NCBI GenBank assembly: GCA_002386405.1
Contig: DGIP01000318.1
Span: 1-37,950 of the forward strand
From: Stenotrophomonas maltophilia
GTDB taxonomy: Bacteria > Pseudomonadota > Gammaproteobacteria > Xanthomonadales > Xanthomonadaceae
Direction of reading: 5' to 3'
DNA: 37,950 nucleotides
Made by a program: the position numbers and the translations under genes. A model generated the notes under the pieces. That model did no database searches, was not told the DNA's origin, and saw only the letters and a list, made by a program, of their open reading frames with translations. This document shows, piece by piece, positions 8,542-33,594 of the stretch. Each line of letters begins with the position of its first letter. Positions within the stretch are counted from its first letter, which is position 1.

Positions 8542-8578
8542 GGTACATCCATTCGATCGTATGTCAGAGGGGAGAGTC

Positions 8579-11763: not shown

Positions 11764-11769
11764 ACAGGC

Positions 11770-11803
11770 CACGGGTGCCGCTGCTTCGGCAGCGGCACCC
11801 GTG
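11770..11803 (+). promoter_or_regulatory. Perfect 15-bp stem with UUCG tetraloop between the receptor and sapC genes
   Basis: CACGGGTGCCGCTGC (11770-11784) pairs perfectly with GCAGCGGCACCCGTG (11789-11803) across a TTCG loop, an exceptionally stable tetraloop. It begins 6 bases after the receptor stop. There is no T-tract after it, so full Rho-independent termination is unlikely. It more plausibly blocks 3' exonucleases or gives partial termination, so that the receptor is made in excess over the following three genes. Confidence 0.8.
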
Positions 11804-11830
11804 CAGGCTCCTGCAGGGATTGGACTACAC

Positions 11831-12589: not shown

Positions 12590-12592
12590 ACG

Positions 12593-13612
12593 ATGGCGGA
12601 GGGCGTTGCCATGCGCACCCTCGAAGGCCTGCAGCCCGATGCGCTGCCGCTGGAGGCACTGGTGGCTGCCGGCGAGCCGGTGGTGCTGCGTGGCATCGCG
12701 CGCGACTGGGCGCTGGTAAACGCCGGGCTGCGTTCCACCCAAGAGGCGTTGGCGTACCTGCGTGGTTTCGATGCCGGCCTGCCGGTGCAGTACTCCTACG
12801 GCGGCCCCGAGATCGAGGGGCGCCCGTTCTACAACGACGATTTCACCCGGTTGAACTTCGAGGTCCGGCGCGGACTGCTGACGCAGGTGCTGGACGAGAT
12901 CGCCGACACCTTCGATGCCCCGAAGCCAGCCACCTATTACGTGGCGTCGCTGCTGATCGAGCGTGCGCTGCCCGGGTTTGCGCAGGCCAACGATGCCGGC
13001 CTGGCCGGGCAGGGCATCGACGCCTCGGCCAGCATCTGGATCGGCAACCGGGTCACCGCTTCGTGCCATTACGACACCCCGGACAACCTGGCCTGCTGCG
13101 CCGTGGGCCGGCGCCGGTTCACCCTGTTTCCGCCGGAGCAGATCGGCAACCTCTATCCCGGCCCGCTGGAACCCACCCCGGGTGGACAGGTGGTGAGCGT
13201 GGTGGATTTCGACCGCCCGGACTTCGACCGCCATCCCAGGTTCCGTGACGCGCTCGCCAGCGCGCAGACCGCCGAGCTGGAACCGGGCGATGCCATCTTC
13301 ATTCCCAGCATGTGGTGGCACCACGTGCGCAGCCTCGAGCCGTTCAACGTGCTGGTGAACTACTGGTGGCGCAGCGTGCCCAGCTTCCTGTCCTCGCCGC
13401 TGCCGGCGCTGCAGCACGCGATGTGGGCGCTGCGCGACCTGCCGCCGCGCGAGAAACAGGCCTGGGCGAAGATCTTCGAGTACTACGTATTCGGTCCCGG
13501 TGAGCGCGCAGGGCAGCACCTGCCCGATGCCGCCCGGGGTGAGCTGGCACCGTTCGACGAGACGCAGGCGCGCCGCACGCGCGCGCAGCTGCTCGGTCGA
13601 CTCAACCGCTGA
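12593..13612 (+). CDS. Cupin-like (JmjC/cupin_8) Fe(II)/2-oxoglutarate-type protein
   Basis: The protein has 339 residues. The jelly-roll core has H159-x-D161 in SCHYDTPDN and a distal histidine in MWWHHV (H243/H244, preceded by LEPGDAIFIPS), which are the facial triad of the cupin_8/FIH-like family. The early segment PVVLRGIARDWAL is also typical of that family. A hydroxylase activity on a protein or small molecule is expected, but the substrate is unknown. Two starts compete: ATG 12593 (AGGA 8 bases upstream) and ATG 12611 (GGAGGG about 8 bases upstream); I kept the longer. It lies in the receptor-SapC-cupin-halogenase block, and its stop overlaps an ATG that opens a five-codon frame leading into the next gene. 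Confidence 0.82.
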   Translation: MAEGVAMRTLEGLQPDALPLEALVAAGEPVVLRGIARDWALVNAGLRSTQEALAYLRGFDAGLPVQYSYGGPEIEGRPFYNDDFTRLNFEVRRGLLTQVLDEIADTFDAPKPATYYVASLLIERALPGFAQANDAGLAGQGIDASASIWIGNRVTASCHYDTPDNLACCAVGRRRFTLFPPEQIGNLYPGPLEPTPGGQVVSVVDFDRPDFDRHPRFRDALASAQTAELEPGDAIFIPSMWWHHVRSLEPFNVLVNYWWRSVPSFLSSPLPALQHAMWALRDLPPREKQAWAKIFEYYVFGPGERAGQHLPDAARGELAPFDETQARRTRAQLLGRLNR

Positions 13613-13629
13613 TGGGGGCATCGCTTTGA
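13612..13629 (+). other. Five-codon frame bridging the cupin and halogenase genes
   Basis: The cupin stop TGA (13610-13612) overlaps an ATG (13612) that opens the frame MGASL and stops at TGA 13627-13629. That stop in turn overlaps the TTG start of the halogenase gene (13626). This UGAUG-then-UUGA layout would let terminating ribosomes pass from one gene to the next. It may be coincidental. Confidence 0.25.
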
Positions 13630-15155
13630 ACGCTGCGAACACGACAGAAGGGCGGATCCGCAAGGTGGTCATCGCTGGCGGCGGAACGGCAGGCTGGCTG
13701 GCCGGTTGTGCGTTGTCCCACCAGTTCCGCGAGCAGCTGGACATCACCCTGGTGGAGTCCGAGCAGATCGGCACCGTGGGCGTGGGCGAATCCACCGTGC
13801 CGCCCATCCGCACCTTCCACCGCTTCCTGCAGATCGACGAGCAGGAGTTCCTGCAGGCGGTGGCCGGCACGTTCAAGCTCTCGATCTCGTTCGAGAACTG
13901 GCGTCGCCCCGGCGAGCGCTTCATCCATCCCTTCGGCACCATCGGGCAAAGCACCTGGGCCACCCCGTTCCATCATTTCTGGCTGGACAGCCTGCGCCGT
14001 GGCATGCCCTCGGACCTGGGCGACTTCTGCCTGGAAAGCGTGGCCTCGCGCGGTGACCAGTTCTCGCTGCAGACCCAGCCCCAGGTCAACTACGCCTATC
14101 ATTTCGACGCCGGGCTGTACGCCAAGTTCCTGCGCCGCCGCGCCGAGGCGCAGGGCCTGCGCCGGGTGGAGGGCAAGATCCGCGAAGTACGTCAGCACGC
14201 CCACGACGGTTCCGTTTCAGCGCTGGTGCTGGAAGACGGCCAGGTGATCGAGGGCGACCTGTTCATCGACTGCACCGGTTTCCGCGGCCTGTTGACCGAG
14301 CAGACCCTGCACAGCGGCTATGAAGACTGGAACCAGTGGCTGCCCAGCGACCGCGCCGTGGCCGTGCAGACCGAGTCGGTCAAGCCGCCGGTGCCGTACA
14401 CCCGCGCCATCGCGCACGAGGCCGGTTGGCGCTGGCACATCGCGCTGCAGCACCGGGTCGGTTGTGGGCTGGTGTTCTCCAGCCGCCATATGTCCGATGA
14501 CGAGGCGCAGGCCAAGCTGCTGCGTGACGTGGAAGGCCAGCCGCTGCGCGATCCGTGGCTGGTGCCGTTCCGCAGCGGGCGCCGTTTGAAGGCCTGGAAC
14601 AAAAACGTGGTGGCGCTCGGCCTGGCCAGCGGCTTCATCGAACCACTGGAATCGACCAGCATCCACCTCACCATCAGCGCGGTGGTGCGGCTGATCCAGC
14701 TGTTCCCGTTCGATGGCATCACCCCGACGCTGACCGCGCTGTACAACGATGTCAGCCGCCAGGAAATGGAGCACGTGCGCGACTTCATCATCCTGCATTA
14801 CCACGCCACCCAGCGCGATGAGCCGATGTGGAAGGCCTGCCGCGAGATGGAGCTGCCCGAATCGCTTGAAGTGCGGTTGCGCGCCTGGCGCGAACGCGCA
14901 CACGCCTGGCAGGACCCCGGCGAACTGTTCCGCGTGGATTCCTGGACCAGCGTGCTGATGGGGCAGGGCATCCAGCCGGGGCCACCGCACCCGCTGGCGC
15001 GCGCGATCAGCGATGCCGACCTGCGCACGCTGCTGTCGCGGATCCAGCAGCCGATACAGCAGGCCGTGGCGACGATGCCGTCGCAGGCCGACTTCATTGA
15101 ACGCTACTGCAAGGCGCCGGCAGAGGTCTGGCCGCGGAGCCTGGCCACCGCCTAG
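13626..15155 (+). CDS. Flavin-dependent tryptophan halogenase-like protein (PF04820)
   Basis: The protein has 509 residues, the family's usual length, if it starts at TTG 13626 with a GGGGG run about 7 bases upstream. The FAD-binding motif GGGTAGW is at 18-24, GVGESTVP at 52-59, and the putative catalytic lysine K84 lies in TFKLSISF. The second signature, WxWxIP in characterised tryptophan halogenases, reads W268-R-W270-H-I-A273, with Ala for Pro. GLASGFIEPLESTSIHL near the C-terminal third is the conserved FAD/halide loop. Related enzymes from Xanthomonas have been reported to halogenate free indoles, preferring bromide, but the physiological substrate of TBDR-linked members is unknown. It is the last gene of the receptor block; 26 bases later lies the xylB operator. 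Confidence 0.83.
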   Translation: MNAANTTEGRIRKVVIAGGGTAGWLAGCALSHQFREQLDITLVESEQIGTVGVGESTVPPIRTFHRFLQIDEQEFLQAVAGTFKLSISFENWRRPGERFIHPFGTIGQSTWATPFHHFWLDSLRRGMPSDLGDFCLESVASRGDQFSLQTQPQVNYAYHFDAGLYAKFLRRRAEAQGLRRVEGKIREVRQHAHDGSVSALVLEDGQVIEGDLFIDCTGFRGLLTEQTLHSGYEDWNQWLPSDRAVAVQTESVKPPVPYTRAIAHEAGWRWHIALQHRVGCGLVFSSRHMSDDEAQAKLLRDVEGQPLRDPWLVPFRSGRRLKAWNKNVVALGLASGFIEPLESTSIHLTISAVVRLIQLFPFDGITPTLTALYNDVSRQEMEHVRDFIILHYHATQRDEPMWKACREMELPESLEVRLRAWRERAHAWQDPGELFRVDSWTSVLMGQGIQPGPPHPLARAISDADLRTLLSRIQQPIQQAVATMPSQADFIERYCKAPAEVWPRSLATA

Positions 15156-15181
15156 CGGGGCCACGCTTTGCCGAACGAAAT

Positions 15182-15204
15182 TGGTAGCGCTACCTTTCTA
15201 GAAT
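15182..15204 (+). promoter_or_regulatory. xyl-box within the xylBA promoter
   Basis: TGGTAGCGCTACCT (15182-15195) matches the operator at 8377-8390 in 13 of 14 positions. A -10-like TAGAAT (15199-15204) begins 3 bases after it, so the box fills the -35/-10 spacer, where a bound LacI repressor would block RNA polymerase. No good -35 is seen. Transcription would begin only about 10 bases before the xylB start. Confidence 0.83.
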
Positions 15205-15220
15205 CTACGGGGTGCATGGG

Positions 15221-16714
15221 ATGGATCTGGTTGCAGGAATCGATGCAGGTACGCAGAGCCTGAAAGTGCTGGTCTACGACCCGGCCAAGCGCAGCGTGGT
15301 GGCCAGCGCCAGCGCGCCACTCGAACTGGATAGCGCCGCCGACGGAAGCCGCGAACAACGCCCGGCCGATTGGGTGGCCGCACTGCACACCTGCTTCGCG
15401 GCGATCACGCCGTCGGTACGCGCCCGCATCGCCGCAGTGGCGGTGTCGGGCCAGCAGCACGGCTTCGTGCCGCTTGATGCAACAGGGGAGGTGCTGGCCC
15501 CGGCCAAGCTGTGGTGCGACACCAGCACCTCGGCCGAATGCACGCAGATCATGGACGCGGCCGGTGGCACGGCGCAGACCATTGCGCTGGCCGGCAACCC
15601 GATCCTGACCGGCTATACCGCCTCCAAGCTGCCGTGGACGAAGACGCATCGGCCGGACGCGTACGCACGGCTGGCCACCATCCTGCTGCCGCACGACTAC
15701 CTCAACTTCGTGCTGACCGGGCAGCGGTTCTGCGAATACGGCGATGCCTCGGGCACCGGCTGGCTGGACGTGCGCACCCGCACCTGGTCGCCCGAGCTGC
15801 TGCGCGCGACCGACCCGGACCGCGACCTGAGCGAGTGCCTGCCGCCCATCGCGCCACCGGACGCGTTGTACGACATCGCGCCCGCGGCCGCGAAATCGTT
15901 CGGCCTGCCTGCCACGGTAAAAGTAGCGGTCGGCGGCGGCGACAACATGATGGCCGCCATCGGCACCGGCTGCGTGGTGCCCGGTCGGCTGGCCATGAGC
16001 CTGGGCACCTCGGGCACGCTGTTTGCCTACTCCGACACGCCCGTGGTCGACCCGGACGGCGCTTGGGCGGCGTTCTGCTCGTCCACCGGCGGCTGGCTGC
16101 CGTTGATCTGCACCATGAACTGCACCGTGGTGACCGAGCAGGTGGCCGACGCCTTCGACTTCAGCACCCGCTTCGGCGACGGGCACCTGCGGAACACGCC
16201 GCCCGGCGCGGATGGGCTGGTGATGCTGCCGTTCCTCAACGGCGAGCGCACGCCCGACCTGCCGCACGGCAAGGGCGTGCTGGCCGGCCTGGACACCACC
16301 AACATGACCCCGGCCCACCTGTACCGCGCGGCCATGGAAGGGGCGACCTACAGCCTGAAGTACGGCTACGACGCCTTCGTCCGCGCCGGCATGCAGTTCG
16401 ACCGCATCGTGCTCACCGGCGGCGGCAGCAACAGCGCCGCGTGGCGGCAGCTGGTGGCCGATGTGTTCGGCCTGCCGGTGGACGTGCCCACCCAGTCCGA
16501 AGGCGCAGCCTTCGGTGCCGCATTGCAGGCGCTGTGGGCGCTGGGCCATGCCCGTGGCGATGAGGCCAGCATCGCCGATATCGCCGAGCGCCACGTGGCG
16601 CTCGACCCGCAGCTGTCGGCGCGCCCGGAACCGTCGCGCACGCCCGCCTATGCCACCGCCTATGCGCGCTTCCTGCGCTACCTCGACGCCGTCACGCCGC
16701 TGCAGCGCGGCTGA
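15221..16714 (+). CDS. xylB: Xylulokinase
   Basis: The protein has 497 residues, typical for XylB in the FGGY kinase family. It phosphorylates D-xylulose to xylulose 5-phosphate, feeding the pentose phosphate pathway. The N-terminal phosphate-1 motif [15 protein letters not shown] is at 6-20, [13 protein letters not shown] is the substrate-binding segment, D241 in [14 protein letters not shown] is the catalytic base, and [20 protein letters not shown] is the C-terminal adenosine motif. The ATG at 15221 has GGGG about 8 bases upstream. A GTG three codons earlier is less likely. The gene is the first of the xyl-box-controlled xylB-xylA-GH3 operon, with xylA 41 bases downstream. Confidence 0.95.
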
Positions 16715-20695: not shown

Positions 20696-21751
20696 TCACC
20701 GCTTGGGCGGGTGCGCGACCGAATCGCGCATTACCAGGCGGTGGGGCAGCACGTGGTCGGTCAGCACGCGGGTGTCGTCGGTGCGGTGGCGGATGCTGCG
20801 CAGCAGGATCTCGATGGCCGCATCGGCCATCGCGGCGATGGGCTGATGCAGGGTGGTGAGCTCGGGCCAGACAGTGGTGGCCGCAGAGGTGTCATCGAAA
20901 CCCACCACGGACAGATCACGCGGCACGTCGAGGCCCTGGCGGTGCGCCACGGAAATCGCGGCAGCGGCCATGTCGTCGTTGCTGGCGAAGATCGCGGTGG
21001 GCGGCAGGGGCTGGGACAGCAGCTTCTCGGCGGCATCCAGGCCCGAACGGTAGGTGTAGTCCCCCTGCTGGACCAGGCTGGGCTCAACCTCCAGCCCGGC
21101 CTCGTGCAGGGCGGTGGCGAAGCCATCGTAGCGACGCGCGCTCGCGCTGAGATCGTTACGGCCGCGGATGAAGCCGATGCGGGTGTGGCCCTGCTGGATC
21201 AGGTGTTCGGTCATCTCCTTGCCGGCGTGGAAGTCATCGATGCGCACGCAGGAAACATCGTCACGCAGGTGCCCCGATGCGATGGCCACCACCGGGGTGC
21301 CAGCCTTCACCAGCTCGGTCACGGCCACCGGCGATTCGCACAGCGGGGGCGGCAGGATCACGCCGTCCACGCGGCCGGCCAGGGCGCGTGCAGCCTTGCG
21401 CTCGGCAACGGGGTCCAGGTTGTCCCAGTAGTGGATGACCAGTTGGATGGCCGCATTGGACGCGCCCCGCAGCAGGCCCACCAGCAGTTCGCGCAGGTAG
21501 GCGCCGCTGGGATTGGTGTAGATCAGCGCAATGCGCGTGTGCTGCGCGGCGGCCAGCGTACTCGCCGCCAGGTTGGGCGTGTAGCCCAATGCCTGCACCG
21601 CACGCATCACGCGCTCGCGGGTGTCGTCGCGCACCTTGCCCTGGTTGATCGCCCGCGACACCGTCATCGGCGACACCCCGGCCAGCGCCGCCACCTCGTC
21701 GATCGTCACGCCACTGGTTTTGCGGCGGACCGATTTCTTCGGCTTGTCCAA
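20696..21751 (-). CDS. LacI-family repressor, paralogue of the first XylR-like protein
   Basis: The protein has 351 residues. It aligns with the repressor at 7243-8304 over its whole length, clearly more than half identical by eye. The HTH is TIDEVAALAGVSPMTVSRAIN, and the effector domain shares TNPSGAYLREL, PPPLCES, FASNDDMA and VVGFDDTSA. The TTG at 21751 has GGGAG 6 bases upstream and aligns with the TTG of the first repressor; a GTG at 21796 would add 15 residues of low plausibility. The near-identical recognition helices (MTVSR core) suggest the two proteins bind the same or overlapping operators. It is divergent from the GH67 operon and convergent with the GH3 lipoprotein gene, with only 17 bases between stops. 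Confidence 0.9.
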   Translation of the reverse strand: MDKPKKSVRRKTSGVTIDEVAALAGVSPMTVSRAINQGKVRDDTRERVMRAVQALGYTPNLAASTLAAAQHTRIALIYTNPSGAYLRELLVGLLRGASNAAIQLVIHYWDNLDPVAERKAARALAGRVDGVILPPPLCESPVAVTELVKAGTPVVAIASGHLRDDVSCVRIDDFHAGKEMTEHLIQQGHTRIGFIRGRNDLSASARRYDGFATALHEAGLEVEPSLVQQGDYTYRSGLDAAEKLLSQPLPPTAIFASNDDMAAAAISVAHRQGLDVPRDLSVVGFDDTSAATTVWPELTTLHQPIAAMADAAIEILLRSIRHRTDDTRVLTDHVLPHRLVMRDSVAHPPKR

Positions 21752-21862
21752 TACGCACTCCCGTTCTTCTTTGTGGCGCTGTGGCGCCCAAAGCACCGCC
21801 TGAGCTTACAAGGTTTGCTGCCCACGCTGCGGTGTCGGCGGCGTGTCGAGCGGTGTCATTGG

Positions 21863-23977
21863 ATGTTGGGAGTTGCGGTGACATTGATGGCCTGCAGCGC
21901 GGGCGTGCGCGCGGAGGACGGCTACGACCTCTGGCTGCGCTACGTACCGCTGGAACCTGCGCTTGCCGCGGACTACCGCGCACAGCTGGGCGCGGTTGCC
22001 GCCCCTGACAGGACGCCCACGCAGCGTGTCGCGCGTGACGAGCTGGTTCGCGGGCTCACGGGCCTGTTGGGCGGCGCGCCCCGGATCCAAAACGAAACTA
22101 CTTTTGGTCAGGTGCTTGCGATTGGTACGCCGCAGTCGTCGGCGTTGGTCGCACCGTTCCGTGACGAGGTCGAGTCGCTTGGCGAAGAGGGCTATCTGCT
22201 CAAGCGCACGCGGCGTGATGGGCGCGAGGTGCTGCTGGTGGCCGCGCGTACCGATATCGGCGTGCTGTACGGCACGTTCCATCTGCTCAGGTTGCTGCAG
22301 ACGGGCACGGCGCTGGATGACCTTTCGGTACGCGAGTCGCCCAAGGTGCGGCTGCGCATTCTCAACCACTGGGACAACCTCGACGGCTACGTCGAACGCG
22401 GCTATGCCGGCCGCTCGCTGTGGGACTGGCAGACGCTGCCGGAATGGAGCGACCCGCGCTACACCGTTTACGCACGCGCCAATGCATCACTGGGCATCAA
22501 TGGCACCGTGCTGAACAACGTCAACGCCAGCGCACAGAGCCTTGCGCCGGACTACCTGGCCAAGGCGGCCGCGCTCGCGGACATGTTCCGACCCTATGGC
22601 ATCCGCGTGTACCTGAGCGCGCGCTTCAGTGCTCCCATCGAACTGGGTGGGCTCAAGACGGCCGATCCGCTCGACCCGGCGGTGCAGCGCTGGTGGCGCG
22701 ACAAGGCCGCCGAGATCTACCAGCGCATTCCGGATTTCGGCGGCTTCCTGGTCAAGGCCAACTCCGAGGGGCAGCCCGGCCCACAGGACTACGGCCGCAG
22801 CCATGCCGACGGCGCCAACCTGCTTGCAGACGCACTGGCACCGCACGGCGGCGTGGTGATGTGGCGCGCGTTTGTCTATGCGCACGACGTACCCGCCGAC
22901 CGTGCCACCCAGGCCTACACCGAGTTCGCCGGGCTGGACGGCGCGTTCCGCCCGAACGTCGTGCTGCAGGTGAAGAACGGCCCCATCGACTTCCAGCCGC
23001 GTGAGCCGTTCCATCCGCTGTTCGGCGCCATGCCGCGCACGCCGCTGATGATGGAGTTCCAGATCACCAAGGAATACCTGGGCTTCGCCACCCACCTGGT
23101 GTACCTGGGACCGTTGTTCGAGGAAGTGCTGCACGCCGATACCCGTGCAGGCGGCAAGCACCTCACCGTGGCGCAGTCGCTCAGCGGTATCGCCGGCGTC
23201 GCCAACATCGGCACGGACCGCACCTGGAGCGGCTCGCACTTCGATCAGGCCAACTGGTATGCGTTCGGTCGCCTTGCCTGGAATCCCGATCAATCGTCCC
23301 GTGACATCGCGGCCGACTGGGCGGCGATGACGTTCTCGCCGGACCTCGCAGTGGTGGAGCCGATCGTCGGAATGATGATGGCCTCCCGCGAGGCCGCGGT
23401 GAACTACATGACCCCGCTGGGCCTGCACCACCTGATGGCGCGCGGCCACCACTACGGCCCGGGCCCATGGGTGGACGGCGGCCCACGCGCGGACTGGACC
23501 TCGGTGTACTACCACCGCGCCGACCGCAACGGCATCGGCTTCGACCGCACCGCGCAGGGCAGCAACGCCGTGGCCCAGTACGCCCCGGAACTGGCCGCGA
23601 AGTACGCCGACCTGACGCAGGTACCGGAGGCGCTGCTGTTGTGGTTCCACCACGTGCCGTGGGACCACCGCATGGCCTCCGGCCGGCCGCTGTGGGACGA
23701 GCTGGTGGGTCGCTATTCGCTGGGCGTACGCCAGGTCGACGCCATGCAGGCCACTTGGGAGAACCTGCGGGGAAGGGTGGATGCACAACGGCACGAACAG
23801 GTCGCCGCCTTCCTCCAGATCCAACGCCGCGAAGCGCAATGGTGGCGCGATGCCAGCATCGCGTACTTCCAATCGATCAGCGGCAGGCCCTTACCAGCGG
23901 GCGAAGCGCCACCACCGCACCCACTGGCGTACTACGAAGCGCTGCAGTTTCCATCGGCACCGGGAGATGGGCGATGA
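21863..23977 (+). CDS. agu67A: GH67 alpha-glucuronidase
   Basis: The protein has 704 residues. It removes 4-O-methyl-glucuronic acid from the non-reducing end of xylo-oligosaccharides. The GH67 catalytic residues are E302 (VKANSEGQP, acid), D376 (NGPIDFQPREP) and E404 (EFQITKEYLG, base); the 28-residue spacing between the last two matches Cellvibrio GlcA67A. The start ATG gives a short signal (MLGVAVTLMACSAGVRAE), consistent with a periplasmic enzyme; LMAC could instead be a weak lipobox. There is no good ribosome-binding site, and an in-frame TTG 13 codons upstream with an arginine-rich n-region is an alternative. It is the first gene of a six-gene operon; its stop overlaps the next start. 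Confidence 0.93.
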   Translation: MLGVAVTLMACSAGVRAEDGYDLWLRYVPLEPALAADYRAQLGAVAAPDRTPTQRVARDELVRGLTGLLGGAPRIQNETTFGQVLAIGTPQSSALVAPFRDEVESLGEEGYLLKRTRRDGREVLLVAARTDIGVLYGTFHLLRLLQTGTALDDLSVRESPKVRLRILNHWDNLDGYVERGYAGRSLWDWQTLPEWSDPRYTVYARANASLGINGTVLNNVNASAQSLAPDYLAKAAALADMFRPYGIRVYLSARFSAPIELGGLKTADPLDPAVQRWWRDKAAEIYQRIPDFGGFLVKANSEGQPGPQDYGRSHADGANLLADALAPHGGVVMWRAFVYAHDVPADRATQAYTEFAGLDGAFRPNVVLQVKNGPIDFQPREPFHPLFGAMPRTPLMMEFQITKEYLGFATHLVYLGPLFEEVLHADTRAGGKHLTVAQSLSGIAGVANIGTDRTWSGSHFDQANWYAFGRLAWNPDQSSRDIAADWAAMTFSPDLAVVEPIVGMMMASREAAVNYMTPLGLHHLMARGHHYGPGPWVDGGPRADWTSVYYHRADRNGIGFDRTAQGSNAVAQYAPELAAKYADLTQVPEALLLWFHHVPWDHRMASGRPLWDELVGRYSLGVRQVDAMQATWENLRGRVDAQRHEQVAAFLQIQRREAQWWRDASIAYFQSISGRPLPAGEAPPPHPLAYYEALQFPSAPGDGR

Positions 23978-25956
23978 GCGGTAAACCGAGGATGGGATGG
24001 ATGTTGGGCAGCGTTCTGGCGTGCTTGGCCGCACCGGCCATGGCGCAGGAAGCCGTGACGCCACTGCTGCACCCGCTATTCCAGGACCATGCCGTCCTGC
24101 AGCGCGACCAGCCGATTCCGGTCTGGGGCCATGCCGCCCCGGACACCACCGTCTCGGTGAAGTTCGCCCGCCAGAGCGCCACTGCGCAGTCAGATGCACA
24201 GGGTCGCTGGCGCATCACATTGAAGCCCATCGCTGCGGGCGGCCCCTATGAAATGCGCGTACGGGCAGGGCAGGCAGACCAGACCGTGAGCGACGTGCAG
24301 ATGGGCGACGTCTGGCTGTGTTCCGGCCAATCCAACATGGAACTGCCGGCGCGGCGCGCGCTCAACGCCGACAGCGAAATCGCATCGTCCACGCACCCGG
24401 ACATCCGTTTGTTCACCGTACCCAAGGCCCCGGCCGTGACGCCCCAGGAGGGGTTCGCCGGACCTGCCTCCTGGCAACCCGCAACACCGGACACCGTGCG
24501 CGACTTTTCCGCTGCCTGCTACTACTTCGCGCGCGAACTGCGGAAGACCATCAACGTACCGATGGGGCTCATCCAGTCCGCGTGGGGCGGCTCGCGGATA
24601 GAGGCGTGGACCAGCGCCGATGCGCTGCGCTCGCAGGGCAGCATGGACGAAGCCCTGGATGTGCTCGCGTTGCATGCCAGCGACCCTGCGGCGGCAAACG
24701 CAGCCTGGGGCAAGCACTGGCAGCAGTGGTGGGAGCAGCGCGACGGCGCCACGCCCGGCGATGCCCCCTGGCAGCCCGACGCCGACCGCACAGGGTGGCG
24801 CCAGGCCCCAGCCCAGCTCGGCGCTTGGGAGCGCTGGGGCGTACCGGCGCTCTCGGCTTACAACGGCATGGTCTGGTACCGCACGCAGGTGAAGCTGAGC
24901 GCCGCACAGGCCGAGCAGGGAGCACGCCTGGAGCTGGCACCTGCCGACGAAACCGACGTGACCTGGGTCAACGGCGTGGCGGTGGGCAGCCAGAACGCAC
25001 CGGGGGATCCGCGCTCGTACCCGCTGCCGCCCGGCCTGCTGAAGGCCGGCATCAACAGCGTGGTCGTCAACGTGCTCGACACCTGGGGCGACGGCGGACT
25101 AGCCGGCCCCGCGGATGCCCACGCCCTGCAGCTGGCCGATGGCACCCGGATCGTTCTGGATTCCCCTTGGCTGTACCGCATAGCCCCCGGCAACCAGGCA
25201 CCGCCACTCGCCCCTTGGCACGCCGCCACCGGCCTTTCCACGCTGTACAACGGCATGATCGCGCCCTTGGGCAGCTATGGCCTGCGCGGCATGCTCTGGT
25301 ACCAGGGCGAATCCAACACCGGCGATGGGGCTGCCTACGCGGACCGGTTGCGCGCGTTGCGCGACGACTGGCGCAGGCAGTTCGGCGCAGAAATGCCGCT
25401 GCTCGTAGTGCAGCTGGCCGGCTATGGCCAGCCGCCCGTGGCCCCGGTGGAAAGCGGCTGGGCGCAGGTGCGCGAGGCGCAGCGGCGCGTTGCCGCAGAA
25501 GACCCGCATACCGGTCTGGCACTCGCCATCGACATCGGCGATGCCTACGACATCCATCCGCCGAACAAACAGGAACTGGGCCGGCGTCTGGCGCGGGTGG
25601 CACGCCATGTGGTCTATGGCGAACGGGCAGTAGCGGCCACCGGTCCGACCGCAGGCAAGGTTTCCCGCACACGGGTGGAGGTGCGCATCGCGTTCGCCGA
25701 TGTCACTGGCACGCTGGTCGCAACGGGTGCCAACGGCCCCATCGGCTTCGAACTGTGCGATGCCGAAGCGAAGCACTGCACCTACGCCGACGCCACGCTG
25801 GATGGCAACGCGGTAGTGCTGAACAGCCTGCAGGCCGCAACCGCCGCCAGCGTCCGCTACTGCTGGGCAGACGGCCCCATCTGCACGCTGCGCGACAGCA
25901 GCGGTGCACCTGCCGGTCCGTTCGAGCTTCCACTCACCCCTGCAGGGGAACCCTGA
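23974..25956 (+). CDS. SASA-family carbohydrate acetylesterase (annotated elsewhere as sialate O-acetylesterase)
   Basis: The protein has 660 residues with a signal peptide ending AMA-QE at about residue 25. The SGNH-like esterase domain (PF03629) is split by an inserted beta-jelly-roll-like region (about residues 240-420). The nucleophile S120 is in CSGQSNMELP, WYQGESN follows the insertion, and D526/H528 are in GDAYDIHPPNK. Known relatives remove acetyl groups from sialic acid, but here the gene lies between GH67 and GH43 in a xylan operon, so acetylated xylo-oligosaccharides are the more likely substrate. GGGAG lies just before the ATG, which overlaps the GH67 stop (ATGA). Confidence 0.88.
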   Translation: MSGKPRMGWMLGSVLACLAAPAMAQEAVTPLLHPLFQDHAVLQRDQPIPVWGHAAPDTTVSVKFARQSATAQSDAQGRWRITLKPIAAGGPYEMRVRAGQADQTVSDVQMGDVWLCSGQSNMELPARRALNADSEIASSTHPDIRLFTVPKAPAVTPQEGFAGPASWQPATPDTVRDFSAACYYFARELRKTINVPMGLIQSAWGGSRIEAWTSADALRSQGSMDEALDVLALHASDPAAANAAWGKHWQQWWEQRDGATPGDAPWQPDADRTGWRQAPAQLGAWERWGVPALSAYNGMVWYRTQVKLSAAQAEQGARLELAPADETDVTWVNGVAVGSQNAPGDPRSYPLPPGLLKAGINSVVVNVLDTWGDGGLAGPADAHALQLADGTRIVLDSPWLYRIAPGNQAPPLAPWHAATGLSTLYNGMIAPLGSYGLRGMLWYQGESNTGDGAAYADRLRALRDDWRRQFGAEMPLLVVQLAGYGQPPVAPVESGWAQVREAQRRVAAEDPHTGLALAIDIGDAYDIHPPNKQELGRRLARVARHVVYGERAVAATGPTAGKVSRTRVEVRIAFADVTGTLVATGANGPIGFELCDAEAKHCTYADATLDGNAVVLNSLQAATAASVRYCWADGPICTLRDSSGAPAGPFELPLTPAGEP

Positions 25957-27644
25957 TGCGCTTGCTGCTTGCCACGCTCCTGCTGCTGTCCGCCGCGCTT
26001 CAGGTGCAGGCAGCCACACCCGCGCCCCCGGTCTACTTCGACTGGTTCGAATACGCCGGCAACGACACCGCGTTCGAGCCGCCGCTGCCCGCAGGCCATT
26101 ACCGCAACCCGATCCTGGCCGGTTTCCACGCGGACCCGAGCATCACAAGCGCTAGCGGGAAGTTCTACCTGGTCAACTCCAGCTTCACCTACTTCCCGGG
26201 CATCCCGGTGTTCGAGAGCGTGGACCTGGTGCACTGGAAGCAGATCGGCAACGTCATCGACCGCCCCTCGCAGCTGGACTTCGATGGGCTCAGCGTCTCA
26301 CGCGGCGTCTTCGCGCCGGCCATCTCGTTCCACGACGGCGTGTTCTACGTGGTCACCACGGCAGTGGACAGCGGCGGCAACTTCATCGCCACCGCCCGCG
26401 ATCCGGCCGGCCCCTGGTCCGACCCGCACTGGCTGCCAGGCATCGAAGGCATTGACCCGTCCCTGTTCTTCGACGAAGACGGCAAGGTCTACCTGCTCAA
26501 CAACGACGTGCCACCTGGCCCACCGCGCTACGAAGGCCACCGCGCCATCTGGATGCAGCAGCTGGATCTGGCGTCGTTCAAGCCGATAGGCCCACGCAAG
26601 GTGCTGATCGACGGCGGCGTGGAGCCGGCCAAAAACCCGATCTGGATCGAAGGCCCGCACATCTACAAGCGCGAGGGCTGGTACTACCTCTCCGACGCCG
26701 AAGGCGGCACCGGCCCGCAGCATTCGCAGGTGGTGCTGCGCAGCCGCGAAGTGTGGGGCCCTTACGTGCCATACCCGGGCAACCCGATTCTCACCCAGCG
26801 CGACCTGCCGCAGGACCGGCCGCTGCCGATCACCAACGCCGGGCACGCCGACCTGGTGGAGGGCCCAGACGGTTCCTGGTGGGCGGTATTCCTGGCCAGC
26901 CGCAACTACGACACCCGCCACTACAACACCGGGCGCGAAACCTACCTGCTGCCGGTGGAATGGCGTGACGGCTGGCCGGTGATCCTGCCGGCCGGCCAGA
27001 CCATCCCGTACGCGGCCAAGGCGCCATCGTGGATGCAGGGCGAGGCAAAACAAGCCCCTTCCACCGGCAACTTCGTAGAACGCAACGAGTTCGACACCGC
27101 CACGCTCGGCAACGACTGGCTGCGCGTGCGCGTCCCAAAACGGGACTGGGCCGACCTCCGCGAGCGCCCCGGTTCCCTGGCGTTGCACCCGCTGCCGGAA
27201 GACCTCGACACGCTACGCAACCCCGCGTTCCTCGGCCGTCGCCAGCAGCACCTCCGCTTCGAGGCCAGCACCCAAATGACGCGGCCAGCAGAAGGCGTAG
27301 CGGCAGGATTGGCCGCCTTCCAGAGCGAAGCGTACTGGTACTTCCTCGGCGTCCGCAGCGTTGGCGAAGAGCGCGTGGTGATCTTCCTGGAAGCGCGTGA
27401 CGGCGGCGGCGCAACAAATACACTCGCGTCGCGCGAAGTGGCAGCGGCAGCCCCGCTGCGCCTGCAGATAAAAGGGGACGGAGGACGTTATGCCTTCGCC
27501 TTCGACACCGGCGACGGGCACGGCTGGCAGACGCTCGCCGATGACGTGGACGGAACGGTATTGAGTACGGATCGTGCAGGCGGCTTCGTTGGCGCGCTGC
27601 TGGGACCATTCGCGCGCGACGAGCGCGCCTTGAGGAGCAAATGA
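25956..27644 (+). CDS. Secreted GH43 beta-xylosidase/alpha-L-arabinofuranosidase
   Basis: The protein has 562 residues, with a signal peptide (about 1-19) and a five-bladed propeller. GH43 residues are D60 (FHADPSI, base), D167 (GIDPSLF) and E232 (IEGPHIY, acid). A C-terminal beta-sandwich (about 360-562, beginning NEFDTATLGNDWLRV) corresponds to the GH43_C2 concanavalin-like domain of beta-xylosidases. It should release xylose or arabinose from xylo-oligosaccharides in the periplasm. The ATG overlaps the esterase TGA by one base (TGATG), with AGGGGA upstream. Its stop overlaps the start of the GH3 gene. Confidence 0.92.
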   Translation: MRLLLATLLLLSAALQVQAATPAPPVYFDWFEYAGNDTAFEPPLPAGHYRNPILAGFHADPSITSASGKFYLVNSSFTYFPGIPVFESVDLVHWKQIGNVIDRPSQLDFDGLSVSRGVFAPAISFHDGVFYVVTTAVDSGGNFIATARDPAGPWSDPHWLPGIEGIDPSLFFDEDGKVYLLNNDVPPGPPRYEGHRAIWMQQLDLASFKPIGPRKVLIDGGVEPAKNPIWIEGPHIYKREGWYYLSDAEGGTGPQHSQVVLRSREVWGPYVPYPGNPILTQRDLPQDRPLPITNAGHADLVEGPDGSWWAVFLASRNYDTRHYNTGRETYLLPVEWRDGWPVILPAGQTIPYAAKAPSWMQGEAKQAPSTGNFVERNEFDTATLGNDWLRVRVPKRDWADLRERPGSLALHPLPEDLDTLRNPAFLGRRQQHLRFEASTQMTRPAEGVAAGLAAFQSEAYWYFLGVRSVGEERVVIFLEARDGGGATNTLASREVAAAAPLRLQIKGDGGRYAFAFDTGDGHGWQTLADDVDGTVLSTDRAGGFVGALLGPFARDERALRSK

Positions 27645-30313
27645 TGACGCGCAGGCCCCTGTTCCGCACGTTGGCGCTCTGCGCCGCCATCACCCTGGCC
27701 ACCGTCGGCCACGCCGCCGCGCCGCAGCCGTGGCTCGACACCTCAGCCAGCTTCGAGACCCGCGCCGCTGCGTTGGTCGCGCAGATGACGCTGGAGGAAA
27801 AGGCCGCCCAGATGCAGAACGCCGCGCCCGCCATCGAACGGCTGGGCGTTCCCGCGTACGACTGGTGGAACGAAGGCCTGCATGGCGTGGCCCGGGCAGG
27901 GCAGGCCACCGTGTTCCCGCAGGCCATCGGCCTGGCCGCCACCTTCGACGTGCCGTTGATGGGGCAGGTAGCCACCACCATCAGCGACGAAGCCCGCGCC
28001 AAGCACCACCAGTTCATCCGCGAGGGCTCGCATGGCCGCTACCAGGGGCTGACCTTCTGGTCGCCCAACATCAACATCTTCCGCGACCCGCGCTGGGGCC
28101 GGGGCCAGGAGACCTACGGCGAAGACCCGTACCTCACCGCGCGCATGGGCGTGGCCTTCGTGCACGGCCTGCAGGGCGATGACCCGGTGTACCGCAAGCT
28201 CGACGCCACCGCCAAGCACCTGGCCGTGCACAGCGGCCCCGAGGCCGACCGCCACCACTTCGACGCCCGGCCCAGCAAGCGCGACCTGTACGACACCTAC
28301 CTGCCGGCGTTCGAGGCGCTGGTGAAGGAAGGCCAGGTGGATGCGGTGATGGGTGCCTACAACCGCGTGTACGGCGAATCGGCCAGCGCCAGCCACTTCC
28401 TGCTGCGCGACGTGCTCCGCCGCGACTGGGGCTTCAAGGGCTACGTGGTCTCCGACTGCTGGGCCATCGTCGATATCTGGAAGCATCACAAAATCGTGCC
28501 CACCCGCGAAGCCGCCGCCGCGCTGGCAGTGAAGAACGGCACCGAGCTGGAGTGCGGCCAGGAATACGCCACGCTGCCGGCAGCAGTGAAGCAGGGCCTG
28601 ATCAGCGAAGCCGAGATCGACGAAGCGGTGACCCAGCTGTTCACCGCGCGGATGCGGCTGGGCATGTTCGACCCACCGGAGCGCGTGAAGTGGGCGCAGA
28701 TTCCCGCATCGGTGAACCAGGCGCCCGCGCACGACGCGCTGGCCCTCAAAGCGGCACAGGAATCGCTGGTGCTGTTGAAGAACGAGGGCGTGCTGCCGCT
28801 GTCACGCGACCTCAAGCGTATCGCCGTGGTCGGCCCCACCGCCGATGACACCATGGCGCTGCTCGGCAACTACTTCGGCACCCCGGCCGCACCGGTGACG
28901 ATCCTGCAGGGCATCCGCGATGCGGCGAAAGGTGTCGAAGTACGCTATGCACGCGGCGTGGACCTGGTGGAAGGGCGCGACGACCCCAGCGCGACCCCGC
29001 TGATCGAAGCAGCCTACCTGCGTCCGTCCGCCGATTCCCCGGAACGCGGCCTGCGCGGCGAGTATTTCCGCACCGCCGATCTTTCCGGCACGCCGGCGCT
29101 GGTCCGTACCGATGCCCAGATCGGCTTCGGCTGGGACCGCGGCTCGCCCACCGACAACCTGCTGGCCCGCGGTGAAGCGGCGCCGGGGCAGGGCATTCCC
29201 AACGACAACTTCAGCATCCGCTGGAGCGGCCAGCTGCTGCCGCCGGTATCCGGCCGTTACCGCATCGAGGCCGCCGCCGACGACGGCTTCCGTCTCTACG
29301 TGGACGGCAAGCGCGTGCTCGACCACTGGGCCAACAGCGACCGCCTGCACGGCGACGGCGTGGACCTGGACCTGCAGGCCGGCCGCGCCTACGACCTGAA
29401 GCTGGAGTACTTTGATGCCGAGCGCGACGCCGGCGTGCGGCTGGGCTGGCGCATGCCCGGTGCAAAACCGCCGTTCGAAGAGGCACTGGATGCCGCCCGC
29501 AATGCCGATGTGGTGGTGTTCGTCGGCGGCCTCACCGGCGATGTCGAAGGTGAGGAAATGAAGGTCAACTACCCAGGCTTCGCCGGGGGCGACCGCACCG
29601 ACCTGCGCCTGCCCGCGCCCCAGCGCGCCCTGCTGGAAGCACTGCACGCCACCGGCAAGCCCGTGGTGATGGTGCTGACTGGCGGCTCCGCGATGGCCGT
29701 GGAGTGGGCCCAGGCGAAACTGCCCGCGATCCTGATGAGCTGGTACCCCGGGCAACGCGGCGGCACCGCCGTCGGCGAAGCGCTGTTCGGCGATACCAAC
29801 CCCGGCGGGCGGCTGCCGGTGACGTTCTACAAGGCAGACCAGGCTATGCCGGTCTTCGACGACTACACCATGGAAGGCCGCACCTACCGTTACTTCCGCG
29901 GCACGCCGCTGTACCCGTTCGGGCACGGCCTGTCGTACACCACATTCGACTACGGCAAACTCCGCCTGGATGCACCCCGCATCGCCGCGGACGGGCAACT
30001 CAAGGTGCAGGTGGACGTGGCCAACACGGGCAAGCGCGCGGGCGATGAAGTGGTGCAGCTGTATGTGCGGCGGGTGGATGCGGCACCGGGTGATGCGCAG
30101 CAGGCGCTGCGCGGCTTCCAGCGTGTCCAGCTGGCGCCGGGTGAACGGCGCACCGTGGCCTTCGATCTGGACGCAACGCAGGCCCTGCGCCAGTACGACG
30201 AAGCGCGGGCGGCGTATGTAGTACCGCCGGGTGCGTACGAGGTCAGGGTAGGCAGCTCCAGTGCCGACGCCCGCGCGCAGGCCCGCTTCACCGTGGAGGC
30301 TGCCCGTGACTGA
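27641..30313 (+). CDS. xyl3A: GH3 beta-xylosidase with PA14 insertion
   Basis: The protein has 890 residues and a signal peptide ending about residue 26. The GH3 barrel carries nucleophile D272 in GYVVSDCWAI, with KHLAVHSGPE typical of the xylosidase branch. A PA14 domain (about residues 470-606, GEYFRTADLSG to LGWRMPG) is inserted in the second GH3 domain, and a fibronectin-III-like domain closes the protein (about 770-890). The PA14 module in GH3 enzymes narrows the active site towards short oligosaccharides. GAGGAG at 27632-27637 is 3 bases before ATG 27641 and 6 before ATG 27644, so translation may begin one codon later. The start overlaps the GH43 stop and the end overlaps the transporter start by 8 bases. 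Confidence 0.92.
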   Translation: MMTRRPLFRTLALCAAITLATVGHAAAPQPWLDTSASFETRAAALVAQMTLEEKAAQMQNAAPAIERLGVPAYDWWNEGLHGVARAGQATVFPQAIGLAATFDVPLMGQVATTISDEARAKHHQFIREGSHGRYQGLTFWSPNINIFRDPRWGRGQETYGEDPYLTARMGVAFVHGLQGDDPVYRKLDATAKHLAVHSGPEADRHHFDARPSKRDLYDTYLPAFEALVKEGQVDAVMGAYNRVYGESASASHFLLRDVLRRDWGFKGYVVSDCWAIVDIWKHHKIVPTREAAAALAVKNGTELECGQEYATLPAAVKQGLISEAEIDEAVTQLFTARMRLGMFDPPERVKWAQIPASVNQAPAHDALALKAAQESLVLLKNEGVLPLSRDLKRIAVVGPTADDTMALLGNYFGTPAAPVTILQGIRDAAKGVEVRYARGVDLVEGRDDPSATPLIEAAYLRPSADSPERGLRGEYFRTADLSGTPALVRTDAQIGFGWDRGSPTDNLLARGEAAPGQGIPNDNFSIRWSGQLLPPVSGRYRIEAAADDGFRLYVDGKRVLDHWANSDRLHGDGVDLDLQAGRAYDLKLEYFDAERDAGVRLGWRMPGAKPPFEEALDAARNADVVVFVGGLTGDVEGEEMKVNYPGFAGGDRTDLRLPAPQRALLEALHATGKPVVMVLTGGSAMAVEWAQAKLPAILMSWYPGQRGGTAVGEALFGDTNPGGRLPVTFYKADQAMPVFDDYTMEGRTYRYFRGTPLYPFGHGLSYTTFDYGKLRLDAPRIAADGQLKVQVDVANTGKRAGDEVVQLYVRRVDAAPGDAQQALRGFQRVQLAPGERRTVAFDLDATQALRQYDEARAAYVVPPGAYEVRVGSSSADARAQARFTVEAARD

Positions 30314-32762
30314 GCACGTCCTGTCGGTACGGGAAAAGCTGGGCTACAGCCTGGGCGATCTCGCGGCGAACCTGATCTTCCAGACGCTCATCACCTACCT
30401 CGCGTTCTTCTACACCGACGTGTACCGGCTGCCGCCGGCCACGGCGGCGACGATCATCTTCGTGATCGGCCTGCTGGGCGCCTTCGTGTTCACCCCGCTG
30501 ATTGGCATTGCCGCCGACCGCACGGCCACCCGGTGGGGCAAGTTCCGGCCATGGATCCTGTGGACGGCGGTGCCCTTCGGCGTGCTCTCGCTACTGGCCT
30601 TCAGCACGCCGCAGCTCGGCGCACAGGGCAAGATCATCTACGCGCTCGGCACCTATGGCCTGCTGATGCTGGTGTACGCGGCCAACAACCTGCCGTACTC
30701 CGCGCTCAGCGGCGTGCTCACCGGCAGCATGGCGCAGCGCAACAGCCTCTCGGCCTACCGTTTCGTGGCGGTGATGATCGCGCAGTTCATCATCCAGGTG
30801 CTGCTGTTGCCGCTGGTGCTGATCCTCGGCGACGGCGACCGCGTGCTGGGCTTCGAGCGGGTGATGACCGTGTTCGCGGTGGTGGGTACCGTGTTCTTCC
30901 TGATCACCTTCGCCACCACCCGCGAGCGCATCGTGCCGGCCAAGGAACAGACTGGCGGGGTGCTGCAGGACCTGTCCGACCTGCTGCGCAACCGCCCGTG
31001 GCAGGTGATGCTGGCCCTCACGATCCTCGTCTTCATCAACCTGGCCCTGAAGGGCGGCACCTACATCTACTACTTCCAGTACTACATGAGCGAGCCGGCT
31101 CTTGCGGGCTTCCTCGACAACACCGGCTTCAACCGCTTCATCGGCGGATTGAACGCCACGCTCAACGGCATGGGGCTGTCCGGCTTCGCGTGGCCGGAGG
31201 ATCCGGCAACCTCGGCGTTCAGCCTGTTCAACGCCTGCGGCATCCTCTGCATGATCCTGGGCATCGGGGTCTCGCGATGGCTGGCCGACCGCTTCGGCAA
31301 GCGTGATGTGTTCGGCGGCGCGCTGCTGGTCTCCACCGTGTTCCTGCTGGTGTTCTACTTCTTCCCGCCCACCGCCGTGGCCGTCGCGTTCGTTTCCTTC
31401 ATGCTGCACGGGTTCTTCTACGGCATCACCATTCCGTTGCTGTGGGCGATGATCGCCGACGTCGCCGACTACTCCGAATGGAAGAACAACCGCCGCGCCA
31501 CCGCCATCATCTTCTCCGCGATGCTGTGCGGCCTGAAGATCGGCCTCAGCATCGGTGGCGCGCTGGTCGCCGGCATCCTGGCGTACTACGGCTACCAGGC
31601 CGGCGCGGAACAGCAGCCCGAGGGCGTGGTCAACGGCATCCGCCTCACCGTGAGCGTCTACTGCTCCATTCCGTTCCTCGTCGCCGTGGCGATGCTGTTC
31701 CTCTACAAGATCGACAAGCGCATGGAAACCCGCATCGAGCAGGACCTGCAGCAGCGCCGCGAGGGCAACAACCTGGGGCACCTGGCGGCCCGTGCCATCT
31801 CCCAGCCGCTGGTGACCCACATCTACACCGCCGATCCGTCGGCCCATGTGTTCGAGGGAAAGCTGTACATCTATCCCTCGCACGACATCGATGCCGGCGC
31901 ACCGTTCGACGATGAAGGGGGGCACTTCGGCATGGAGGATTACCACGTACTGCGCATGGGCAGCCCCACCGGCGAGGCCACCGACTGCGGCATGGCGCTG
32001 CACGTCCGCGACGTGCCATGGGCGGCAAAGCAGATGTGGGCACCAGACGCGGCGCACCGTGACGGCCGCTATTACCTGTACTTCCCGGCCAAGGACGGGG
32101 AGGGCAGGTTCCGCATCGGCGTCGCCGTGGCCGATCGCCCCGAGGGGCCGTTCACCGCCGAACCGGAGCCGATGGCCGGCACGTACTCCATCGATCCGGC
32201 CGTATACGAAGACGACGACGGCGCGCATTACCTCTACTTCGGCGGCATCTGGGGCGGCCAGCTGCAGAAGTACCGCGACAACCGCTACGACGCCGCACAC
32301 GAAGAACCCACCGGCGATGCGCCTGCGCTGGGCCCGCGTGTTGGCCGACTGGAAACGGGCATGACCCAGCTGACAGAGCCCACGCGCGAGGTGATCATCC
32401 TGGACGAGCATGGCCAGCCACTGCGCGCCGATGACCACGAGCGCCGCTTCTTCGAAGGGCCGTGGCTGCACAAGTACCAGGGCAGGTATTACCTGTCGTA
32501 CTCCACCGGCGACACCCATCTGCTGTGCTACGCCATCGGCGACAGCCCGTACGGCCCGTTCACCTATGGCGGCGTGATCCTCAAGCCGGTAGTGGGCTGG
32601 ACCACGCACCACTCCATCTGCGAGGTCGAAGGGCAGTGGTATCTGTTCTACCACGACGCCTTGTTGTCCGGCGGGGTCACTCACCTGCGCTCGGTCAAGT
32701 GCACCCCGCTGCACATGGAAGCGGACGGCAGCATCCGGACTATTGATCCCTATGGCAACTGA
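30306..32762 (+). CDS. GPH-family sugar:cation symporter fused to a cytoplasmic GH43 glycosidase
   Basis: This is a single uninterrupted frame of 818 residues. Residues 1 to about 485 are a GPH/MFS-2 symporter with about 12 membrane segments; motifs include IGIAADRTATRWGKFRPWIL and the DVADYSEWKNNRRATA loop, and the segment ends KIDKRMETRIEQDL. After a short linker, residues 500-818 are a complete GH43 domain: D510 in YTADPSAH (base), D630 in YSIDPAVY and E717 in FFEGPWLHK (acid). A GPH C-terminus is cytoplasmic, so the glycosidase would act on sugar just imported. GGAGG at 30295-30299, 6 bases away, sets the GTG start, which overlaps the upstream stop. No stop or internal ribosome-binding site separates the halves. 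The two domains are usually separate genes. Confidence 0.88.
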   Translation: MTEHVLSVREKLGYSLGDLAANLIFQTLITYLAFFYTDVYRLPPATAATIIFVIGLLGAFVFTPLIGIAADRTATRWGKFRPWILWTAVPFGVLSLLAFSTPQLGAQGKIIYALGTYGLLMLVYAANNLPYSALSGVLTGSMAQRNSLSAYRFVAVMIAQFIIQVLLLPLVLILGDGDRVLGFERVMTVFAVVGTVFFLITFATTRERIVPAKEQTGGVLQDLSDLLRNRPWQVMLALTILVFINLALKGGTYIYYFQYYMSEPALAGFLDNTGFNRFIGGLNATLNGMGLSGFAWPEDPATSAFSLFNACGILCMILGIGVSRWLADRFGKRDVFGGALLVSTVFLLVFYFFPPTAVAVAFVSFMLHGFFYGITIPLLWAMIADVADYSEWKNNRRATAIIFSAMLCGLKIGLSIGGALVAGILAYYGYQAGAEQQPEGVVNGIRLTVSVYCSIPFLVAVAMLFLYKIDKRMETRIEQDLQQRREGNNLGHLAARAISQPLVTHIYTADPSAHVFEGKLYIYPSHDIDAGAPFDDEGGHFGMEDYHVLRMGSPTGEATDCGMALHVRDVPWAAKQMWAPDAAHRDGRYYLYFPAKDGEGRFRIGVAVADRPEGPFTAEPEPMAGTYSIDPAVYEDDDGAHYLYFGGIWGGQLQKYRDNRYDAAHEEPTGDAPALGPRVGRLETGMTQLTEPTREVIILDEHGQPLRADDHERRFFEGPWLHKYQGRYYLSYSTGDTHLLCYAIGDSPYGPFTYGGVILKPVVGWTTHHSICEVEGQWYLFYHDALLSGGVTHLRSVKCTPLHMEADGSIRTIDPYGN

Positions 32763-33594
32763 GCGCGCGTTACCCATCGACGACGCGCAGGCGCCCCTGC
32801 TGTCGGGCTGCCTGCGTTGGTTGCGCGCGGGAAGGCTCGAGGTGGCGCTTGCCCCAGAGGCGGGCGGACGCATCGCTCGCATCCGCCATGAAGGCGTTGA
32901 GTGGCTGGTGGACGAGCAGGAGGGCGGGGCGGCCACTATCGCATGGGGCTGCTACCCAATGGTGCCGTGGGCCGGGCGCATCCGGCACGGGCGCTTCACC
33001 TTCGATGGCAGGGCGTACGCGTTGCCAACGAACTTCGGCGAACACGCCATCCACGGCGTAGGGTTCGCGTTGCCGTGGCAGATCGACAGCATCGCGGCGG
33101 ACAGCGCCTCGCTGTCACTGCAGCTTCCCGAGGACGACTACTGGCCCTTCGGCGGCACCGCAACACAGGTCATACACCTGACGCCGCACAGTCTCGAACT
33201 ACGCCTCGCCGTGCAGGCCGGCACCCAGCCGATGCCGGCGATACTCGGCTGGCACCCGTGGTTCCGCAAGCCGGATCAATTGCTGTTCGAGCCCGACGCC
33301 ATGTATCCGCGAGACGAGGAGGGCATAGCCAGGCTGCCACTGGTAAGCGCATCCCCCGGCCCATGGGACGACTGCTTCATCAACCAGAACGACATAACCC
33401 TGGTCTACGGCGGCCAGCGCCTGACGCTGCAATCCAACACCCACCACTGGGTGGTCTACGACGCCGCCCCACACGCCACCTGCGTAGAACCCCAAACCGG
33501 CCCACCCGACGGGTTCACCCTCGCACCGACCAGACTGGAACCCGGCCAACACCTGGAGCTGACCTTCGAACTCGCGTGGAATACGCCACGATAA
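32752..33594 (+). CDS. galM: Aldose 1-epimerase (xylose mutarotase)
   Basis: The protein has 280 residues without a signal peptide. It belongs to the aldose 1-epimerase superfamily: HAIHGVGF and GWHPWF hold the catalytic histidines, and CVEPQTGPPDGF carries the glutamate base. It interconverts anomers of the free sugar, which would speed delivery of alpha-xylose to XylA after hydrolysis by beta-xylosidases. The ATG overlaps the end of the transporter-GH43 gene by 11 bases; no strong ribosome-binding site is seen, so coupling is likely. It is the last gene of the operon; a MITE-like repeat starts 13 bases after it. Assignment to xylose rather than galactose rests on context. Confidence 0.87.
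   Translation: MATERALPIDDAQAPLLSGCLRWLRAGRLEVALAPEAGGRIARIRHEGVEWLVDEQEGGAATIAWGCYPMVPWAGRIRHGRFTFDGRAYALPTNFGEHAIHGVGFALPWQIDSIAADSASLSLQLPEDDYWPFGGTATQVIHLTPHSLELRLAVQAGTQPMPAILGWHPWFRKPDQLLFEPDAMYPRDEEGIARLPLVSASPGPWDDCFINQNDITLVYGGQRLTLQSNTHHWVVYDAAPHATCVEPQTGPPDGFTLAPTRLEPGQHLELTFELAWNTPR

Follow-up and report, generated by a model that had tools for sequence, protein, structure and literature searches.

Gene organization of the locus

The window, that is, the whole stretch of 37,950 nucleotides from Stenotrophomonas maltophilia analysed here, carries on its forward strand a run of genes with overlapping ends, in the order GH67, esterase, GH43, GH3, transporter-glycosidase fusion and aldose epimerase-like gene. 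The genes around the fusion, assigned with Pfam, are as follows.

20696..21796, reverse strand: LacI-family regulator facing the operon
21887..23977, forward strand: GH67 alpha-glucuronidase-like gene (several possible starts; start uncertain)
23974..25956, forward strand: SASA-type esterase-like gene with an export-signal-like start (start chosen by eye)
25956..27644, forward strand: second GH43 gene, with a GH43_C2 domain (C-terminal, concanavalin-like) and an export-signal-like start (start chosen by eye)
27641..30313, forward strand: GH3 gene with an export-signal-like start (by eye), overlapping the fusion start by 8 bases
32752..33594, forward strand: aldose 1-epimerase-like gene overlapping the fusion end (start chosen by eye)

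A xylose isomerase-like gene, a xylulokinase gene, another GH3 gene, a TonB receptor and LacI regulators lie nearby, and by eye four of the neighbouring enzymes (the two GH3 enzymes, the GH43 enzyme and the esterase) begin with export-signal-like sequences. The xylan context proposed in an earlier note on this DNA is borne out by the GH67, two GH3, second GH43, esterase-like, xylose isomerase-like and xylulokinase genes, and judging from this gene content, the setting is a glucuronoxylan operon. In X. campestris, a xylan-related TonB locus has been proposed (available part of PMC1790865). Beside the xylan genes, at positions 8473-16714, the window also holds genes for a TonB receptor, SapC, a cupin-like protein and tryptophan-halogenase-like proteins, followed by a carbohydrate kinase.

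The whole seven-gene order from GH67 to the epimerase recurs in 8 of the 19 loci printed, four with the fused gene (L010, L011, L012 and L053) and four with transporter and enzyme split into separate genes (L065, L066, L068 and L070). In the fused locus L009 the esterase was not detected; the remaining printed loci hold fewer operon genes, and L016, L019 and L024 hold only the transporter-enzyme pair.

Architecture of the fusion protein

A single forward-strand frame occupies positions 30306-32762 and comprises 818 codons with zero inner stops; its start codon is GTG, and GGAGG lies ahead of it at 30295-30299. Pfam places both MFS_2, at 266.5 bits against a cut-off of 27, and Glyco_hydro_43, at 97.8 bits against 32.2, in this same protein, in agreement with the single polypeptide claimed earlier. 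Its parts are listed below; the fused rows are those of the comparison with relatives described further on.

30306..31730, forward strand: transporter part of the GPH family (residues 1-475), with 12 membrane helices (scores of MFS_2 and TIGR00792 exceed their cut-offs; model helices)
30477..30494, forward strand: helix II from G58 to T63, matching the MelB cation-site residues Asp55 and Asp59 (alignment; YagG comparison; roles from the available part of PMC8329300)
31731..31805, forward strand: linker, residues 476-500 (tail helix and short helix), the fusion site (split-form stop and start absent; dN/dS 0.286; lower pLDDT)
31806..32762, forward strand: GH43_1-type xylosidase domain (predicted), residues 501-818, including the stop codon (Pfam; 6xn0 E 2.5e-169; Foldseek TMt 0.96 to 6xn0)
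31833..31835, forward strand: codon of D510, predicted general base (alignment to 6xn0; Asp in 27/27 fused rows)
32193..32195, forward strand: codon of D630, predicted pKa modulator (alignment to 6xn0; Asp in 27/27 fused rows)
32454..32456, forward strand: codon of E717, predicted general acid (alignment to 6xn0; Glu in 27/27 fused rows)

The AlphaFold model of the fusion (mean pLDDT 91.0) consists of 12 long membrane helices and an all-strand C-terminal domain. In the join region, the model shows a tail helix at residues 471-487 and a short helix at residues 491-496; residue blocks within 481-500 average pLDDT values of 66 and 73, and the pTM of the whole model is 0.66. When this model was used as a Foldseek query, the top match was 6xn0, and the best transporter matches were MFSD2A and MelB. 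Membership of the transporter part in the GPH family follows from NCBIfam TIGR00792, which scores 339.4 bits on the fusion against a curated cut-off of 231.35. Together with the 12 helices of the model, this score confirms the earlier description of a complete 12-helix GPH transporter.

GH43 domain and its position relative to the membrane

The residues D510, D630 and E717 align with Asp30, Asp150 and Glu237 of XacGH43_1 (Xac4258 of X. citri, PDB 6xn0), where the numbering of the 6xn0 residues takes into account a 20-residue tag offset of the PDB chain, which is our own inference. In XacGH43_1 these residues serve as the base, the pKa modulator and the acid; the enzyme releases xylose from X2 to X6 and is calcium-activated (all from the available part of PMC7809346). 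The complete GH43 domain with three catalytic acids named in the earlier note is thus recovered in the alignment. The best solved relatives of the domain are 6xn0 and 5glk, which have the same fold and, as structural relatives, place it in GH43 subfamily 1. XacGH43_1 shares with the fusion the subfamily, the triad and 71-72% identity; it differs in being a stand-alone enzyme, and the available part of the PMC7809346 text mentions no transporter. Taken together, the domain is probably of the GH43_1 type and is predicted to release xylose from xylo-oligosaccharides.

The topology of MFS proteins puts the C-terminus on the cytoplasmic side. Lys and Arg residues number 25 in the predicted inner loops of the fusion versus 4 in the outer loops. 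Based on this topology and charge distribution, the GH43 domain would be cytoplasmic, in agreement with the placement of the C-terminus given earlier. The split GH43_1 genes printed start, by eye, without an export-signal-like sequence. On the other hand, cytosolic calcium is low, and a cytoplasmic placement fits poorly with the calcium activation of XacGH43_1.

Transporter part and the missing cation site

In MelB, the cation is bound by Asp55 and Asp59 on helix II, and the D59C and D59A mutants transport without cation coupling (available part of PMC8329300). This Asp pair is absent in the window protein, where the corresponding residues are G58 and T63 and helix II has zero charged residues. 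The same holds for the lineage: the Asp55 position is occupied by G, A or S in 118/118 rows, and the Asp59 position by T or N in 116/118 rows, L081 (Prevotellaceae) being one of the two with Asp. Among other long GPH proteins, Asp is kept at the two positions in 44 and 47 of 51, a control set that was picked by length and motif and from which 13 of 64 proteins had been dropped for a missing motif. The best-scoring curated relative, E. coli YagG, keeps both cation-site aspartates, and the fusion retains K411, which probably corresponds to MelB Lys377. Of the earlier term "GPH symporter", therefore, the family (TIGR00792) and the 12 helices stand, and the word symporter becomes doubtful because both MelB cation-site aspartates are gone. 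Since split homologues also lack them, their loss is not tied to the fusion. Coupling to protons or sodium by other residues is possible.

Junction and origin of the fusion

The relatives mostly have adjacent separate genes, and the departure from the two-gene arrangement noted before is real. In the split junctions printed, the transporter ends at a stop codon, which is followed by a short gap and then by a new ATG of the enzyme; the window, by comparison, has one frame instead of the separate reading frames of a two-gene cassette. In the eight fused junctions printed, the split-form stop, gap and ATG are all absent; both the tail of the transporter (RIEQDL..RR) and the former N-terminus of the enzyme (LAxxAISQPLVTH) are retained. 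Fixed landmarks lie 145-148 bases apart in the nearest split rows and 116-148 bases apart across all split Xanthomonadaceae rows; among the 27 fused Xanthomonadaceae rows, the distance is 69-72 bases in 23 and 90 in four. From this shorter spacing relative to the sister split genes, approximately 76 bases were lost at the fused junction, which rules out loss of the stop by point change alone. The fusion therefore originated when two neighbouring genes lost the stop and start that had separated them.

Three rows were excluded before the trees were built: L001, which is identical to the window, L062, whose transporter frame is broken, and L077, which is truncated by its contig. Of 118 rows, 38 were sampled for a careful tree and 29 for a tree with AU tests. 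In the careful tree, all 27 fused rows form one clade (support 99/94) beside the split genes of S. maltophilia type; the 29-row tree likewise has a single fused clade for its five fused Xanthomonadaceae rows (96/90). A quick tree of all 118 rows nested five S. maltophilia-type split rows among fused rows (SH-aLRT 81 and 94) and so suggested repeated fusion inside Xanthomonadaceae, which the 38-row tree contradicts. A single origin in Xanthomonadaceae is the preferred reading of these trees, with the caution that the basal P0051 and P0052 have a shorter linker. The copies of genus g33 group with the X. sacchari protein P0050 inside the Stenotrophomonas fused clade, and this nesting suggests that the fused gene was transferred between genera.

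The linkers are different in three Bacteroidota-type fused proteins, namely, P0053, P0054 (the same as L058) and P0055. One shared origin with them was rejected (AU p 4.7e-5), whereas one origin within Bacteroidota was compatible with the 29-row tree (p 0.28). Because a single clade containing every fused row is rejected, the tree tests indicate a separate fusion in Bacteroidota, and the same two genes have, on this evidence, fused at least twice overall.

Two further observations concern related copies. The S. nitritireducens split copy (L074 and L104) groups with Luteimonas and Pseudoxanthomonas and not with other Stenotrophomonas, which suggests transfer. In P0071, a relative of 612 residues, the transporter frame continues beyond its normal end and enters the enzyme gene in a different frame.

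Occurrence in relatives and selection

A search of 101 relatives recovered full-length fused genes lacking an inner stop in 12, every one of them from the window's genus. The MFS_2 and Glyco_hydro_43 architecture, for which a search of other genomes had been proposed, was found, likewise full-length and free of inner stops, in 19 of 395 family genomes (12 from the window's genus and 7 from genus g33), while any match at E 1e-60 occurred in 150 of the 395. Each of the 19 fused genomes gave one match only at E 1e-60, and hence has no separate close copy of the enzyme. Among the 120 protein clusters listed out of 6830 matching, 54 hold both domains; the names on 7 of these 54 are symporter or hypothetical protein. 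The 113 loci and the window give 114 locus rows, of which 29 are fused and 85 have adjacent separate genes. Since L001 has the same sequence as the window and L058 belongs to Bacteroidota, 27 fused Xanthomonadaceae rows remain, and these are 25 different sequences because L004/L009 and L011/L092 are identical pairs.

The same open junction is present in other genomes, in some cases in one contig (G043 and G026; G289), and no stop is hidden between the two domains, either in the window or in these relatives. The window does come from a draft genome of 348 contigs and 83% completeness, but a stop or frameshift concealed by faulty sequencing or assembly is ruled out by the relatives with the same open fused frame, and we assign it practically no chance. 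The transporter-glycosidase gene fusion is genuine and conserved, and it is encoded by certain bacteria associated with plants and soil.

Simple Nei-Gojobori counts of our own on 27 of the 29 fused rows (without L001 and L058) gave median pairwise dN/dS values that were low in the enzyme (0.102) and the transporter (0.118) and higher in the linker (0.286); the corresponding medians at nine split loci were 0.119 for the transporter and 0.138 for the enzyme. Both halves of the fusion are under purifying selection and, with the catalytic acids kept, both are maintained.

Proposed function and alternative explanations

Based on the results presented above, we consider it likely that the fusion acts as one inner-membrane protein that imports xylo-oligosaccharides and cleaves them in the cytoplasm by a GH43_1-type activity, within a glucuronoxylan operon. 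The operon hydrolases, which mostly look exported, would trim glucuronoxylan fragments; the GPH part would then carry short xylo-oligosaccharides, the presumed substrate, from the periplasm across the inner membrane. The GH43 domain, tethered on the cytoplasmic face by the linker of about 25 residues, would cut xylose off the incoming chains, and the tether would help through local capture of the sugar delivered by the transporter. In this way, the cell may digest sugar chains as they enter; the coupling is putative, and the facing of the two domains is uncertain at a pTM of 0.66. The exported-looking GH43 and GH3 enzymes of the same operon could, against this, consume the oligosaccharides first. 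Split forms are common and lie in the same operon, and hence the fusion is not required. The observation and the coordinates of the earlier note are thus upheld, and its interpretation is supported in part.

A fusion of nearly neutral effect could quite well explain the same locus, even if we lean away from it: a small deletion would have joined two co-translated genes that already functioned next to each other, and the product, no better than the pair, would persist by descent and transfer. The same operon kept in split relatives, a linker of variable length whose evolution outpaces that of the domains, and one origin accounting for all 27 fused Xanthomonadaceae rows agree with this explanation, but the separate joining of these two genes in Bacteroidota and the lack of re-splitting within the fused clade of the careful tree speak against it. 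Unlikely, in our estimate, is a facilitator with a built-in pull, in which the transporter is not cation-coupled and tethered hydrolysis lowers the inner concentration and draws substrate in. The replaced aspartates of the lineage, the uncoupled transport of the MelB mutants and the retention of both aspartates in YagG point in this direction; however, the aspartates are absent in split homologues also, another residue could couple protons or sodium with K411 kept, and the GPH control set was a selected one. We would similarly not expect the broader form of this idea, namely, that a facilitator lacking the cation site and a tethered exo-xylosidase at its exit constitute self-driven uptake, a single-polypeptide vectorial hydrolysis that evolved at least two times.

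It is more improbable still that two products are made, with an internal start or a protease cut yielding a free enzyme beside the membrane protein. An in-frame GTG is present at V503 in the window, further start-like codons occur in some relatives, the close relative L089 has a linker GTG with GAAGG 10 bases before it, and order within the join is lowest in the linker; yet none of the eight fused junctions printed retains the split-gene ATG, and V503 lacks a preceding purine-rich site.

Comparison with known systems

A sugar importer and an intracellular glycosidase are normally two distinct proteins, and B. subtilis xynP-xynB is a two-gene cassette of a GPH transporter and a beta-xylosidase. 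The E. coli yagG-yagH cassette likewise sets a GPH transporter beside a xylosidase, with 34% identity between YagG and the transporter part of the fusion; the cassette genes are separate, however, YagH is a distant GH43 relative (28% over 169 columns), and YagG keeps the aspartates. MelB, the melibiose transporter, shares the family and the 12-helix fold but has no enzyme domain, and it possesses the Asp55 and Asp59 that are absent in the fusion. Lactobacillar loci also contain two-gene cassettes of a GPH transporter and a beta-xylosidase (available parts of PMC8954004 and PMC12432433). A literature search, with subscription journals mostly outside its scope, gave no description of a GPH-GH43 or other transporter-glycosidase fusion. 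Such fused proteins are already in the databases, and what is new is a variant of the known pairing of GPH importer and cytoplasmic xylosidase.

The fused pair offers a natural test of whether a hydrolase at the transporter exit speeds uptake, with ready controls in the split forms of sister species, whose transporters are approximately 85-87% identical. With the cation site missing, one may ask where this GPH lineage obtains its driving force; if the facilitator explanation were true, a hydrolase placed at the exit of the facilitator would provide a simple means of drawing sugar inward. A working example would aid the engineering of xylo-oligosaccharide uptake.

Other in-frame fusions were seen among the database proteins. 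In GH10-GH43_1 fusions, GH43_1 is joined in frame likewise, the partner being a xylanase domain and not a transporter; in P0122-P0187, GH43_1 occurs in longer proteins with a GH10 xylanase, PF01261 or a deacetylase, and in P0165 with FHA and GGDEF. The GH3-GPH fusions P0194 (1297 aa) and P0202 (780 aa, partial), the two seen, combine the same transporter family with a glycosidase, but the enzyme is GH3 and N-terminal; the GPH part keeps the helix II D-x-x-x-D pair in both. GPH transporters of about 735-760 residues are found among P0196-P0234, some named Sedimentisphaerales and several with an extra PF17963. Finally, P0247 has GPH and GH10 in one frame, but the intervening sequence seems to be shifted in frame, so that this is probably not a true fusion and the junction is damaged or misread.
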